This document shows, in pieces, positions 17,099 to 55,290 of a stretch of 56,291 nt of DNA; position 1 is the stretch's first letter, and every line of letters starts with the position of its first letter. This DNA is from a bacterium. Lineage in GTDB: Bacteria; DRYD01. The stretch covers positions 74,039-130,329 of the forward strand of contig JAUQQQ010000005.1 of NCBI GenBank assembly GCA_030549815.1, read 5' to 3'. The translations under genes were made by a program, and so were the position numbers. Under the pieces are notes generated by a model, which did not search any database, was not told where the DNA came from, and saw nothing but the letters and a program-made list of their open reading frames with translations.

Positions 17099-17347
17099 CT
17101 AAACTTTGGTTAATTTATTTTCGATAAAGTCAACAGCATCTTTAACAGTGAGGATTTTTTGGCTTTCTTCATCACTAATTTCAATCCCAAACTCTTCTTC
17201 CATTTTCATTATTAATTCGACCAAATCCAATGAATCAGCACCAAAATCATCAACAAAGGAAGAATCCTCTTTTACTTCGTTTTCATGGACTTGCAATTTT
17301 TGAGACACTATTTTTACTATCTTTTGGTATATTTCTTCTCTTGTCAT
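17099..17347 (-). CDS. acpP: Acyl carrier protein
   Basis: An 82-residue acidic protein carrying acyl chains on a 4'-phosphopantetheine arm attached to Ser39 in the motif GADSLDLVELIMKMEEEF. Length and helix pattern are those of the fatty-acid ACP. The ATG has a GGAG Shine-Dalgarno about eight bases upstream. The leader (17367-17400) can form an H-type pseudoknot that also occurs before ppdK. No fab genes are adjacent; pdxT lies upstream and pilZ downstream. Confidence 0.95.
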   Translation of the reverse strand: MTREEIYQKIVKIVSQKLQVHENEVKEDSSFVDDFGADSLDLVELIMKMEEEFGIEISDEESQKILTVKDAVDFIENKLTKV

Positions 17348-17366: not shown

Positions 17367-17400
17367 GCTGGAAATTTTTATTCCGCCTTCCAGCAGGCGG
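17367..17400 (-). promoter_or_regulatory. Candidate H-type pseudoknot RNA in the acpP leader (copy A)
   Basis: On the minus strand: stem 1 CCGCC (17400-17396) with GGCGG (17387-17383), loop 1 a single U, and stem 2 GCUGGAA (17394-17388) with UUCCAGC (17373-17367), seven perfect pairs. An A-rich loop AAUAAAAAU joins the 3' strand of stem 1 to the 3' strand of stem 2. The element begins four bases after the pdxT stop and ends 20 bases before the acpP start codon. A second copy with the same stem 1 and a different but still complementary stem 2 lies before ppdK at 52560. It matches no riboswitch class I recognise. Confidence 0.6.
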
Positions 17401-17404
17401 ATCT

Positions 17405-17980
17405 TTATTTTATCAAACTAAGAAAGTATTTATGAATTGTTGGATTAGCCGAAAGCTCTGGATGAAAAGTGGAGACTAATACATTATTTTCCTGGACCAA
17501 AACGGGAACCTCTTCAAAAGTTGCCAACTCTTTTACTTTTGGCCCAATGTTTGTTATTTCTGGTGCTCTTATAAAAACTGCTCTAATCATTGTTCCCAAT
17601 GAAGGTATGTTTATAACAGTGTCAAAACTTTCTCTTTGTCTTCCATAAGCATTTCTTTTTATTTCTATATCTATAAGTCCCAAAGGTTTTTGCCATTCTT
17701 TTCCATCCTGTATTTTTTTAGCCAACAATATAGCGCCTGCACAGGTTCCAAATATTGCCATCCCTCGTTTATTTGCCTCAACCAATGCTTGTCTGAATTC
17801 ATCATCCATTATCCTGTCAATCGTAGTGCTTTCTCCACCAGGGATTATTAATCCTTGGATATCCTCCAACTCATCGGGATACTTTATTATTTTTGGTTCC
17901 ACATTTAAAGCAGATAATATATGAATATGTTCTAAGAAATCCCCTTGCAATCCCAAAACTCCCACTTTTACTTTTGACAT
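17405..17980 (-). CDS. pdxT: Pyridoxal 5'-phosphate synthase glutaminase subunit
   Basis: PdxT hydrolyses glutamine and channels ammonia to PdxS for PLP synthesis. The 191 residues begin MSKVKVGVLGLQGDFLEH and contain IIPGGESTTIDR, the nucleophile Cys80 in FGTCAGAILLA and the catalytic His-Glu pair in FHPELSANPTIH. The open frame extends to 18028, but the AGGAGG Shine-Dalgarno nine bases before the ATG at 17980 and the family N-terminus fix the start there. pdxS is not in the window. The gene lies between accC and acpP on the same strand. Confidence 0.96.
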   Translation of the reverse strand: MSKVKVGVLGLQGDFLEHIHILSALNVEPKIIKYPDELEDIQGLIIPGGESTTIDRIMDDEFRQALVEANKRGMAIFGTCAGAILLAKKIQDGKEWQKPLGLIDIEIKRNAYGRQRESFDTVINIPSLGTMIRAVFIRAPEITNIGPKVKELATFEEVPVLVQENNVLVSTFHPELSANPTIHKYFLSLIK

Positions 17981-42840: not shown

Positions 42841-44625
42841 CTATGCCACGTAAACTCTATTTCTTCCTTCCTTCTTTGCTCTATACAATAATTCATCTGC
42901 TTTCTTTATCAATTCATCTTTAGAGGAAGCATCAAGAGGGAAACAAGCAACACCTATAGAAGCAGCAACTTGTATATCCCCACGCCTCAGAGAATAATAA
43001 GCCTTTCTTATTTCCTCAGCTAACACAGCTGCATTCTCTTTATAAAAATTTGGTAATATAACAGCAAACTCATCTCCACCGTATCTACAAACATACCCCT
43101 TATCACCAACAATAGACAATATAATTTTTGCTATATTTTTCAATAACTCATCACCCATAGGATGTCCAAAAGTATCATTATATTGCTTAAATTTATCCGT
43201 ATCTATCATTAATAAACAAACCGGATAACCGTAGAGTTTAGCATTCTCTACTTCTTTAGATAGTAGCTCTTGAAAATGCCTGTGATTATACAATCCTGTT
43301 AAACCATCCTTTATCGACATATCACGAGTTTTTGAATATTCCTTATAAAGAATGTAAAGTATAGCAAATTTGTCACATAATAATTCCACAAAGTTAACAT
43401 CCTGTTCATTAAAGCTACGAGTATTCACACTGGAAAGATAAACAACACCAATAAGCTTGTTCCCAATTTTTATTGGAGTACAAATAAAACTTCTATCATC
43501 TTTATATAAAGATAAAGCACTAAAAACAGTGCCACCAAAATATGAAACAGTTTTCAAACTATTTACAACAATCTCAATCGCAGTGTTTTTTAAATAAAAT
43601 TCAGCTCTACCTATCCCCCTATGAAAAACCGCCTTCATAGATTCAATTATATTATCTTCTTTCTCAGGAATAAAAATAACAAACCTTGAAAAATTCAATG
43701 ATTTAGATAAGATAGAATAAAATGAATGATAAAGATCTTCATAATCAGGGTTTTCATCAAGCTTTGAGTAAAACTCCCCAAGATACCTCAACCAATTATC
43801 CAATTTATCAGAATTTTCCTTCAATTCTAACAATTTTCTTTTTAAAGAAGAAACTTCGTAAGTATTTATTATATTTTCGATAAAATTCCTAAAATATTCC
43901 TTTACAGAGTCAAAAATAAGAGAATTATAAACCCACCTCAAAGTAAAAACTACAAATGAATAAATAATAAACACAATAATCAATAAAATTCTCAGCAAAA
44001 CTTCATTAGAAGCTAAAAAATTGGAAAATAAAAATATACAAGATAAACAAACTAAAATATAATACTCATTAAACATGTATTTAAAAGGAAAAATTTTTTT
44101 ATCCTCCTTAATCGTTAAGAAAGATTTTTCAAATACTTCTGTTTTAATATCAGGCTCCATCTTTTTTTGCTTCTCAACTTCATCTAAATAATGAATAATA
44201 TTATTTTTTAAATTTTCGTCAAAAATACCGCTTATAGAACCTGTAAATAAGATCAAATAGAAATAAGCAAAAATGATATAAAAAACTATAAAACCTAACA
44301 AATTTTTAGCAAACAGGACAACAAAAATAAATGCAAAAGCAAAAGAAAATAATGTAAATAAAGATTTTGAAACCAAATTATACATTTTTAATTTCAAAGA
44401 AGCATCAAAATTTATAGAAAATTCCTTCAAAATAAAAGTTATAACAGCTAATAAAGATAAAATAAGGATAAGCAACCAATCGTTTATACCCTTATAAACG
44501 ATATAGATGGGTATAAAAGAGGAAAAAATTGGGATAGCGTCAACCCACTGTCTATAATAAATGACAATAAATTCTAGTAAAACAGAAGCAATAACTATCG
44601 TCAATAAATATACATCAAACATCAT
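42841..44625 (-). CDS. Membrane-bound diguanylate cyclase (GAF-GGDEF)
   Basis: A 594-residue protein. About seven hydrophobic helices occupy residues 1-235, a coiled coil about 245-275, a GAF-like sensor about 280-420 (FSRFVIFIPEKED ... CTPIKIGNKLIGVVYLSS), and a GGDEF domain about 430-594 with an intact CRYGGDEFAVILP and GLYNHRHFQELL. It should make c-di-GMP. The inhibitory RxxD site upstream of GGDEF reads IVGD, with the Arg missing, so product inhibition is probably weak. The PilZ protein encoded at 16640 is a possible target. It overlaps the LDEY-repeat gene by one base and ends a six-gene run. Confidence 0.93.
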   Translation of the reverse strand: MMFDVYLLTIVIASVLLEFIVIYYRQWVDAIPIFSSFIPIYIVYKGINDWLLILILSLLAVITFILKEFSINFDASLKLKMYNLVSKSLFTLFSFAFAFIFVVLFAKNLLGFIVFYIIFAYFYLILFTGSISGIFDENLKNNIIHYLDEVEKQKKMEPDIKTEVFEKSFLTIKEDKKIFPFKYMFNEYYILVCLSCIFLFSNFLASNEVLLRILLIIVFIIYSFVVFTLRWVYNSLIFDSVKEYFRNFIENIINTYEVSSLKRKLLELKENSDKLDNWLRYLGEFYSKLDENPDYEDLYHSFYSILSKSLNFSRFVIFIPEKEDNIIESMKAVFHRGIGRAEFYLKNTAIEIVVNSLKTVSYFGGTVFSALSLYKDDRSFICTPIKIGNKLIGVVYLSSVNTRSFNEQDVNFVELLCDKFAILYILYKEYSKTRDMSIKDGLTGLYNHRHFQELLSKEVENAKLYGYPVCLLMIDTDKFKQYNDTFGHPMGDELLKNIAKIILSIVGDKGYVCRYGGDEFAVILPNFYKENAAVLAEEIRKAYYSLRRGDIQVAASIGVACFPLDASSKDELIKKADELLYRAKKEGRNRVYVA

Positions 44626-52559: not shown

Positions 52560-52598
52560 CCGCCTGTCAGGGGAAAGGCGGAATATAAATACCCTGGC
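52560..52598 (+). promoter_or_regulatory. Candidate H-type pseudoknot RNA in the ppdK leader (copy B)
   Basis: Stem 1 CCGCC (52560-52564) with GGCGG (52577-52581). Loop 1 is a single U. Stem 2 is GUCAGGG (52566-52572) with CCCUGGC (52592-52598), seven pairs with one U.G. The joining loops are GAAA and the A-rich AAUAUAAAUA. The architecture equals copy A before acpP (17367-17400): identical stem 1, one-base loop 1, seven-pair stem 2 of different sequence and an A-rich 9-10-base loop 3. It ends 37 bases before the ppdK start codon. The compensating differences in stem 2 are the main support. Confidence 0.6.
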
Positions 52599-52635
52599 CC
52601 AAAATCGATAAAGGTTTTGGAAAGTAATAATAATC

Positions 52636-55290
52636 ATGAAATGGATATACTTCTTTGATGAAGGTAATGCTAATATGAGATTATTACTTGGTGGTAAAGG
52701 TGCAAATTTAGCAGAAATGACAAATTTAGGATTACCAGTTCCACCAGGTTTCACCATAACTACTGAAGTATGCAAAATGTATTTAGAGAATAAAGAAAAA
52801 ACAATGACAGAATTAATGCCTAAAGTAGAAGAAGCAGTAAAAGAATTAGAAAAAAGGATTGGAAGAAAATTCAATGACAAACAAAATATGCCTTTACTTG
52901 TTTCGGTTAGATCTGGCGCACCAGCATCAATGCCAGGAATGATGGATACCATCCTCAATGTAGGATTAACAAAAGAATTAATACCAGTTCTATCAAAATA
53001 TACCAATAGAAGATTTGCACTCGACTCATACAGAAGACTATTACAAATGTTCGGCAAAACAGTTCTACTTATCCCAACATTAGAAGAAATCTTAGATGAA
53101 TACAAAAAACACCACAATAAAAAATTAGATATAGAATTAACAGAAGAAGATTTGGAAAAAGTCATAGAATTATTAGAAGAAGAGTATAAAAAACATGGCA
53201 AAAATTTGCCTCAAGATCCTATAGAACAACTAAGAATGTCAATAGAAACTGTTTTTAATTCCTGGAATAATGAAAGAGCAAAAGAATACAGAAGGATATA
53301 TAATATTCCTGAAAATTGGGGAACTGCAGTAAATGTCCAAGCAATGGTATTCGGTAATTTAAATGATAAATCAGCCACAGGTGTAGCCTTTACTAGAAAC
53401 CCTTCAACTGGAGAAAAAGTACTGTATGGCGAATATTTGGTTAATGCACAAGGAGAAGACGTAGTAGCAGGTATAAGAACGCCCTCACCAATAAGTGAAA
53501 TGAAAGAAAAGTGGCCTGATACTTATGAACAACTCCTAAAAATCTCAGAAAAACTTGAAAAACACTACAAAGATATGCAAGATATGGAATTCACCGTAGA
53601 AGATGGAAAACTATATATGTTACAAACAAGGAATGGCAAAAGAACAGCACAAGCAGCAGTTAAAATCGCAGTCGATCTACACAAAGAAGGAATCATTACA
53701 AAAGAAGAAGCTGTGTTGAGAGTATCTACAGATGAAGTAGAAAAATTATTACATCCTCAAGTAGATCCAAAATCAAATATTAAACCTTTAACAAAAGGAT
53801 TAAACGCTTCACCAGGAGCTGCTATAGGAAAAGTAGTATTCGATTCAAAATTGGCAGCAGAATTAGGAGATAAAGGGGAAAAAGTTATTCTGGTAAGGCC
53901 TGAAACTAATCCCGATGATATAGCAGGTTTAGCAAGATCACAAGGAGTATTAACAGCACGAGGAGGAATGACAAGCCATGCAGCAGTAGTAGCAAGGGGA
54001 ATGGGTAAACCCGCTGTAGTAGGCGCCGAGGAAATAATTATTAACCTGAAAGAAAAGTTCTTTGAAGTAGGAAATGTAAAAGTTAAAGAAATGGATATTA
54101 TTAGTATTGACGGATCAACAGGATACGTTTATTTAGGAGAGGTTAAATTAATACCACCAACATTATCAAATGAGTTCTTCGAACTTTTAAGAATGGCAGA
54201 TGAAGTAGCAGAAATAGGAGTAAAAGCAAACGCAGATACACCAGAAGACGCAAGAAGAGCTTACGAATACGGAGCAAAAGGAATAGGATTATGTAGAACT
54301 GAGCACATGTTTATGGCAGAAGACAGACTACCTATCATGCAAGAAATGATAATCGCTGAAACAAAAGAAGAAAGACAAAAAGCACTTGATAAACTACTAC
54401 AAATGCAAAGAGATGATTTTTATAACATATTCAAGGAAATGAAAGGATATCCCGTGGTTATTAGATTACTTGATCCACCCTTACATGAATTCTTACCAAA
54501 AGAAGAAATATTAAACAAAAAAATAGAAGAAGCAAAAAAAGAAGGTAAAAATGAAGAAGTAGAAAAATACAAAAAAATGTTAGAAAAAGCAGAAATTTTA
54601 AAAGAAGCTAATCCAATGCTTGGTTTCAGAGGATGTAGATTAGGAATAGTTTATCCCGAAATAAATGAAATGCAAGTAAGAGCAATATTTGAAGCAGCTG
54701 TTAAATTACATAAAGAAGGAGAAAAAGTCAATCCTCACATTATGGTTCCATTGGTAGGATTAGAAAAAGAAATAGAAGTAGTTAAACAAAAGTTGGAAGA
54801 AGTGGCACAAAAAGTATTAAAAGAAAATAACGTTCAAATAGAATATAAATTTGGGACTATGATAGAAGTTCCAAGGGCATGTGTAATAGCAGATAAAATA
54901 GCAAAGCATGTGGAATTCTTCTCATTCGGAACAAACGATTTAACTCAGATGACGTTTGGATATAGTAGAGATGATGCCGAAGCAAAGTTCATACCTTACT
55001 ACTTAGAAAACAATATTTTAGAATTTAATCCATTTCAGCATTTAGATACAGAAGGTGTTGGAGAATTGATGAAAATGGCAATCGAAAAAGGTAGAAAAGT
55101 GAAAGCAAATCTGGAAGTAGGTATTTGCGGAGAACACGGAGGAGATCCCAAGTCTATACATTTTGCATACACAATAGGAGTAGATTATGTAAGTTGCTCC
55201 CCATTTAGAGTCCCCGTAGCAAGATTAGCAGCAGCTCAAGCAACAATAAAACATTCCAAAAAAGAAGTAAAATTAGCAGAAACAAGATAA
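52636..55290 (+). CDS. ppdK: Pyruvate, phosphate dikinase
   Basis: Cytoplasmic enzyme interconverting pyruvate, ATP and phosphate with phosphoenolpyruvate, AMP and pyrophosphate. It is used in anaerobes for PPi-linked glycolysis or gluconeogenesis. Of 884 residues, the ATP-grasp domain begins LGGKGANLAEMTNLGLPVPP. The phosphohistidine domain has LTARGGMTSHAAVVARGMGK with the catalytic His near 450. The TIM-barrel domain has GIGLCRTEHMF and the catalytic Cys in ICGEHGGDPKS near 831. There is only a weak Shine-Dalgarno (GGAAAG at -12), and the leader carries a candidate pseudoknot (52560-52598). Confidence 0.98.
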   Translation: MKWIYFFDEGNANMRLLLGGKGANLAEMTNLGLPVPPGFTITTEVCKMYLENKEKTMTELMPKVEEAVKELEKRIGRKFNDKQNMPLLVSVRSGAPASMPGMMDTILNVGLTKELIPVLSKYTNRRFALDSYRRLLQMFGKTVLLIPTLEEILDEYKKHHNKKLDIELTEEDLEKVIELLEEEYKKHGKNLPQDPIEQLRMSIETVFNSWNNERAKEYRRIYNIPENWGTAVNVQAMVFGNLNDKSATGVAFTRNPSTGEKVLYGEYLVNAQGEDVVAGIRTPSPISEMKEKWPDTYEQLLKISEKLEKHYKDMQDMEFTVEDGKLYMLQTRNGKRTAQAAVKIAVDLHKEGIITKEEAVLRVSTDEVEKLLHPQVDPKSNIKPLTKGLNASPGAAIGKVVFDSKLAAELGDKGEKVILVRPETNPDDIAGLARSQGVLTARGGMTSHAAVVARGMGKPAVVGAEEIIINLKEKFFEVGNVKVKEMDIISIDGSTGYVYLGEVKLIPPTLSNEFFELLRMADEVAEIGVKANADTPEDARRAYEYGAKGIGLCRTEHMFMAEDRLPIMQEMIIAETKEERQKALDKLLQMQRDDFYNIFKEMKGYPVVIRLLDPPLHEFLPKEEILNKKIEEAKKEGKNEEVEKYKKMLEKAEILKEANPMLGFRGCRLGIVYPEINEMQVRAIFEAAVKLHKEGEKVNPHIMVPLVGLEKEIEVVKQKLEEVAQKVLKENNVQIEYKFGTMIEVPRACVIADKIAKHVEFFSFGTNDLTQMTFGYSRDDAEAKFIPYYLENNILEFNPFQHLDTEGVGELMKMAIEKGRKVKANLEVGICGEHGGDPKSIHFAYTIGVDYVSCSPFRVPVARLAAAQATIKHSKKEVKLAETR

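Follow-up and report, generated by a model that had tools for sequence, protein, structure and literature searches.

A lineage-specific family of H-type leader pseudoknots in Calescibacteriaceae, nearly constant in stem 1 and loop 3

Some riboswitches, such as preQ1-I and SAM-II, are small H-type pseudoknots whose loop 3 is A-rich and which lie near the ribosome-binding site; preQ1-I is further marked by a short conserved stem 2 and a conserved, C-containing loop 1. The pseudoknot of phage T2 gene 32 has a stem 1 of 5 bp, a loop 1 of 1 nt and a stem 2 of 7 bp. At the T4 gene 32 operator, repressor binding is nucleated by a pseudoknot that lies 5' of a ribosome-binding site rich in A and U (PMC535899). 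Binding of 30S and S1 to tisB requires an RNA pseudoknot (PMC7708055), and the 30S platform is the docking site of the one in rpsO (PMC3858243). STAXI RNAs carry UUCG loops and are found near DNA-handling genes (PMC2864571). Most leader pseudoknots described so far belong to a single gene or answer to a single ligand, whereas here we find one module before dozens of unrelated core genes.

The window, by which we mean the whole 56,291-nt stretch of DNA analysed, contains H-type pseudoknots at both sites where the initial annotation had placed a pair, before acpP (17400-17367, minus strand) and before ppdK (52560-52598, plus strand). The acpP copy reads CCGCC-U-GCUGGAA-GGCGG-AAUAAAAAU-UUCCAGC, with a loop 2 of 0 nt, and the ppdK copy reads CCGCC-U-GUCAGGG-GAAA-GGCGG-AAUAUAAAUA-CCCUGGC; stems and loops are as annotated, save that the 4-nt loop 2 (GAAA) of the ppdK copy had been left out. 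The features are as follows.

17396..17400, minus strand, acpP element, stem 1 5' strand CCGCC
17395, minus strand, acpP element, loop 1, single U
17388..17394, minus strand, acpP element, stem 2 5' strand GCUGGAA
17383..17387, minus strand, acpP element, stem 1 3' strand GGCGG
17374..17382, minus strand, acpP element, loop 3 AAUAAAAAU (family consensus WAUANAARU)
17367..17373, minus strand, acpP element, stem 2 3' strand UUCCAGC
17099..17347, minus strand, acpP (acyl carrier protein) gene
52560..52564, plus strand, ppdK element, stem 1 5' strand CCGCC
52565, plus strand, ppdK element, loop 1 U
52566..52572, plus strand, ppdK element, stem 2 5' strand GUCAGGG
52573-52576, plus strand, ppdK element, loop 2 GAAA
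52577..52581, plus strand, ppdK element, stem 1 3' strand GGCGG
52582..52591, plus strand, ppdK element, loop 3 AAUAUAAAUA
52592..52598, plus strand, ppdK element, stem 2 3' strand CCCUGGC
52599..52620, plus strand, accessory hairpin CCAAAA...UUUUGG between the ppdK pseudoknot and the ATG, read by eye
52636..55290, plus strand, ppdK (pyruvate, phosphate dikinase) gene

The stop codon of the upstream pdxT/SNO gene ends at 17405, 4 nt short of the acpP element, and a Shine-Dalgarno sequence (GGAG) lies between the element and the acpP ATG; none is present in the 15 nt preceding the ppdK ATG. The pattern CCGCCTN{5,20}GGCGGAATA matches twice in the window and not at all in 100 dinucleotide shuffles, and the acpP and ppdK copies are the only ones in the window. 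One relaxed-scan match, at 42993 on the minus strand, is inside a coding sequence and appears to be a chance hit. Short AU-rich hairpins of unrelated sequence also lie between pseudoknot and ATG in six other leaders (L099, L101, L102, L107, L118 and L137); these hairpins and the one at 52599-52620 end some 12-21 nt before the start codon.

We find that these two copies belong to a much larger family. The genome that carries the window was searched both by pattern and by model: CCGCCTN{5,20}GGCGGAAT matches seven times (reversed control, 0), and a first covariance model, built from 15 copies with only stem 1 modelled as paired, gives 28 matches (E up to 1). With the same model, three genomes of the same genus have 11, 25 and 30 matches, two from a second Calescibacteriaceae genus have 36 and 21, and one from another family of the same order has none. 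A second model, run over 290 genomes, returns the same six genomes plus one of another phylum (G147), which has a lone copy; a search of 147 relatives of the latter yields one more match, weak and apparently due to chance, and by model search the element is nearly absent from about 430 other genomes. Lone matches in the genomes G291, G138 and G096 are without a good stem 2 and are apparently due to chance. From these searches we conclude that the element is lineage-specific to Calescibacteriaceae (Candidatus Calescibacterium, a hot-spring candidate phylum), where it precedes about 20-35 mostly housekeeping genes per genome in most genomes examined. Analysis proceeded on a collection of 135 non-identical copies. 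The suggestion that the shared leader might be undescribed holds against Rfam, in which no family reaches its gathering threshold at the element in a search that covered 20 loci and the phage contig described below as well as the window; Rfam 15 matches fall only elsewhere in the searched sequences (tRNA, rRNA, 6S and TPP). A search of the Calescibacterium/Calescamantes literature for an RNA motif or riboswitch found nothing.

The collection allows the crossing helix to be judged independently of the model that found it. Stem 2, which was not modelled, forms at least six contiguous pairs in 84% of copies, compared with 23% (31% at most) when copies exchange 3' halves, and its mean score is 16.7 over all copies versus 10.0 (sd 0.24) for swapped halves. 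The 119 copies that were not used for training give 16.8 and 10.2 (sd 0.26), and the excess also holds for 62 copies with distinct stem 2 sequences. Compensatory change is found both in stem 1 and in the crossing stem 2, which places the element in the H-type RNA pseudoknot class. Stem 1 is 5 bp long, and its variants (CCGCC/GGCGG, CCGCU/AGCGG and CCGCU/GGCGG) are joined by compensated forms (CUGCC/GGCAG, CCGCG/CGCGG and GCACC/GGUGC, along with CCGCU/AGCGG versus CCGCC/GGCGG). Stem 2 is usually 6-9 bp and free in sequence; loop 1, by a best-helix criterion, is mostly 0-3 nt and often one U; loop 2 ranges from 0 to 32 nt among copies; and loop 3, mostly 8-11 nt, spans stem 1 with the near-invariant sequence WAUANAARU, in which A2 is present in all 135 copies, U3 in 131, A4 in 133, and A6 and A7 in 134/135 each. 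The rpsD leaders keep the element in all six genomes with a stem 2 that is altered yet paired, and the orthologous leaders of frr, mdh, rpmE, acpP, nitroreductase and HIT do the same with a changed stem 2 sequence, as when GUCAUA/UAUGAC in one HIT leader is GCAGACC/GGUCUGC in another. Selection on structure, argued at the outset from two copies, is thus borne out by pairing far above chance and by compensatory changes in further leader copies, retrieved with the covariance model from the same genome and its relatives. We conclude that this is a real, conserved family of leader pseudoknots in which stem 1 and loop 3 are nearly fixed.

Copies from the second genus carry long loop 2 inserts that pair with sequence just 5' of stem 1 to form a helix, P0 (for example UUUAGCGUUCUU/AAGAACGCUAAA and AGGUUAGCCU/AGGCUAACCU). 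A swap test on P0 is positive but weaker, with the observed value reached in 9 of 2000 shuffles. P0 and the two stems may constitute three mutually crossing helices (ABCABC), or P0 may act as an alternative hairpin or switch (L149, L162, L146, L170 and L185). Predicted stem sums at 75-80 C have medians of -6.2 and -4.7 kcal/mol before loop penalties, a marginal stability that makes temperature sensing conceivable.

The placement of the copies is strikingly uniform: 132 of the 135 lie on the sense strand with the end of stem 1 20-73 nt before an ATG. From the end of stem 2 to the AUG there are at least 8 nt in all but one copy, and 8-20 nt in most; in a second distance group, of about 26-50 nt, an extra hairpin often intervenes. 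About 40 copies begin no more than 10 nt 3' of an upstream stop codon and so lie inside operons and are not promoters. A promoter is also rejected on the variation of loop 2 from 0 to 32 nt, which leaves no fixed -35/-10-type spacing to the TATAAA-like loop 3, and an intrinsic terminator on the lack of a U-run after stem 1 or 2 in bacterial copies; both are further rejected because stem 2 covariation needs the two halves in one RNA. In the window's own genome, the genes that follow are ppdK, HIT, enoyl-CoA hydratase, two acetate-CoA ligase-like genes, a glutamine-amidotransferase-like gene, class I aldolase, frr, tig, prs, acpP, nitroreductase, mdh, a GH57 branching enzyme, rplL, rpmE, a nuoE-like gene, 5'-nucleotidase, rpsD, HMG-CoA lyase, an ACT-domain gene, jag, ispH, a kbl-like gene, ssb, rplE and two unknowns. 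Relatives add gap, recA, rpsB, rpsO, rplQ, rpmF, rpoZ, secD, fabD and others, as read by eye from N-termini without a family-library search. An operator of the T4 gene 32 type is bound by a cooperative single-strand-binding protein that represses its own gene; the ssb gene does carry the element (L123, L201 and L203), as do dozens of others.

One genome of the family, G004, holds 16 near-identical cassettes of about 100 nt before unrelated genes; most of the cassettes have P0, a pseudoknot with a GCAGACY stem 2 and a GUGUAUA hairpin.

G004 cassette loci: L137, L139, L150-L152, L157, L170, L171, L173, L185, L189, L197, L208, L209, L217, L093

These cassettes are a recently spreading leader subfamily. 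The lone element in G147 is complete (L241:1501-1552), lies before an argG-like gene and has the same P0 as the G004 cassette; it was probably transferred.

A few rare phage contigs also have the element. One viral contig (L282; IMGVR_UViG_3300045912_000129) carries 9 stringent copies, or about 12 with the model, in 12.5 kb (L282:1948-11433) and none in a reversed-sequence control. Stem 1 takes the forms CCTCG/CGAGG, CCGCG/CGCGG, CCACG/CGTGG and others, with the same loop 3 variants, and the copies often precede ORFs as tandem pairs. In several of them the 3' strand of stem 2 is GGAGG, which resembles a Shine-Dalgarno sequence. One orthologous copy is common to two other contigs (L297 and L299), and the element regions of L282 and L297 have no DNA match in annotated phages. 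Viral and non-Calescibacterium contigs that match stem 1 and loop 3 alone mostly are without stem 2, and were used as a negative set. Three Oscillospiraceae loci (L235, L236 and L239) show CCGCCTGAG..GGCGGAATATAAATA followed by a conserved region containing GGACTGGCT; as family members these CCGCC..GGCGGAATATAAATA sequences were rejected for having no stem 2, Rfam gives no match at the sites, and they are possibly another unknown RNA.

We then consider the translational context. The 16S 3' end carries the usual anti-Shine-Dalgarno, and in the window's own genome a Shine-Dalgarno of at least 4 matching bases precedes 57% of element genes versus 57% of background genes in the window, so that simple replacement of the Shine-Dalgarno by the knot is unsupported there. 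Over all copies the rate is 42%, and for the closest elements 28%, to be read against a background rate drawn from the own genome only. No multi-domain ribosomal protein bS1 was detected in any of the element-carrying genomes (G000-G005), which are incomplete MAGs; all six encode a protein with one S1 domain and the size of PNPase (about 690-706 aa), and some give weak matches, mostly of about 570-580 aa. A four-S1-domain protein is present in G006, from the sister family of the same order that is without the element (loci L256-L271 for G000-G006). The non-detection of bS1 tracks the element; with one phylogenetic contrast and incomplete MAGs, this could be a coincidence.

We give about an even chance to the element being a cis-acting general leader signal at translation initiation, in which the knot docks on the 30S subunit or on a factor that substitutes for bS1. 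Three things suggest action at initiation: where the copies lie relative to the AUG, their sites inside operons and the wide range of targets. A general expression signal fits better than a fatty-acid and PEP/pyruvate riboswitch because the targets are diverse and include phage genes. On docking as a standby pseudoknot, it is the position and the non-detection of bS1 that bear. The knot would come last among the structures of the 5' leader or intercistronic spacer and would be recognised in its folded form through stem 1 and loop 3, acting in cis. Its 3' edge lies 8-20 nt before the AUG in most copies, at the expected site of the Shine-Dalgarno helix and the 30S platform, and docking on the 30S subunit, or on a factor that replaces the apparently missing bS1, would promote or tune initiation on those messages needed in large amounts. 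The net effect could be activation or regulated repression; structure 8-12 nt from the AUG could equally block 30S binding. We regard as rather unlikely the bolder proposal of a general IRES-like ribosome-recruiting signal, in which a family that has lost bS1 would dock a modular knot whose loop 3 is fixed on the 30S subunit for its housekeeping genes, a device that some phages would use too.

The conservation of stem 1 and loop 3 far beyond the needs of folding, with stem 2 left free, is also typical of a recognition site, and the geometry is like that of the T4 gene 32 operator; a global RNA-binding protein might thus bind stem 1 and loop 3 in trans and, like T4 gp32, repress or stabilise a housekeeping regulon. 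We consider this operator unlikely but a serious contender, given that no candidate protein was found, that the regulon would be very broad and that a phage carries the elements in tandem. The protein-binding half of the original proposal, a small riboswitch or protein-binding leader, survives to that extent, whereas a metabolic riboswitch is unlikely; a riboswitch linking fatty-acid and PEP/pyruvate genes in particular is disfavoured because the targets span ribosomal proteins, central metabolism, ssb, tig and frr, and phage genes too. One that senses a global metabolite or alarmone, such as a nucleotide second messenger, and sets the translation of growth genes would be compatible with the high copy number per genome, would suit growth control of ribosomal protein and central metabolism genes, and has precedents among small A-rich pseudoknots in preQ1-I and SAM-II. 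We hold it to be quite improbable, as no Rfam riboswitch matches, the free variation of stem 2 in length and sequence and of loop 2 (0-32 nt) leaves little room for a conserved pocket, and phage genes are among the targets.

Sites directly 3' of stop codons within operons, many target genes that are expected to be highly expressed and a thermophilic setting would all suit a knot that shields transcripts, full-length or processed, at their 5' end and so raises the expression of internal operon genes. Simple protection, however, needs neither a tight distance to the AUG, with its floor near 8 nt, nor a strict loop 3 sequence, and such a stability element is improbable. A dispersed REP- or MITE-like repeat without leader function is hardly credible: the 16 near-identical G004 cassettes of about 100 nt with their GCAGACY stem 2, and the lone G147 copy before argG in another phylum with the same P0 stem, indicate that copies can spread, but almost all copies (132/135) are on the sense strand just before an ATG, and most have only stem 1 and loop 3 in common, pair despite divergence and are kept at orthologous genes. 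The annotation had named copies at random positions, like a dispersed hairpin repeat, as a contrary outcome; copies were instead found on the sense strand ahead of start codons, unlike the random position and orientation of REP or MITE elements, and the G004 cassette subfamily does spread. Our preference is first for a leader that would dock on the ribosome or a factor, then for a regulatory-protein operator, next for an mRNA stabiliser and last for a riboswitch.

The family appears to be an undescribed RNA class whose genome-wide use is unusual, although its structural kind, the H-type pseudoknot, is already known; it is a module in which stem 1 and loop 3 are fixed and stem 2 is interchangeable. 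Should it recruit ribosomes, bacteria would have an initiation signal that goes beyond Shine-Dalgarno and bS1; should it bind a protein, a candidate phylum would have a large post-transcriptional regulon. With 135 copies in hand, the docking and protein-binding readings can each be tested directly in vitro.

Each of the closest described systems shares part of this design. STAXI resembles it in being made of repeated pseudoknots, as in the tandem pairs of the viral contig L282; the UUCG loops are STAXI's, and the Rfam search of L282 does not report it. In contrast to preQ1-I and SAM-II, the element is without an Rfam match and has a longer, sequence-free stem 2, a one-base loop 1 and many unrelated targets; identity with preQ1-I was rejected on the missing Rfam match, a stem 2 of mostly 6-9 bp of free sequence and a first loop base that is mostly U. 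The tisB standby and rpsO of E. coli also have a leader pseudoknot, one that binds 30S (and S1) and controls initiation (PMC7708055, PMC3858243), but these are single genes, the tisB standby lies about 100 nt upstream, and both involve bS1, which is undetected in the element genomes. T4/T2 gene 32 shares an H-type leader pseudoknot upstream of an A/U-rich ribosome-binding region; there, one phage gene is served through the repressor gp32 with another loop 3, whereas here dozens of unrelated genes share the WAUANAARU loop 3.
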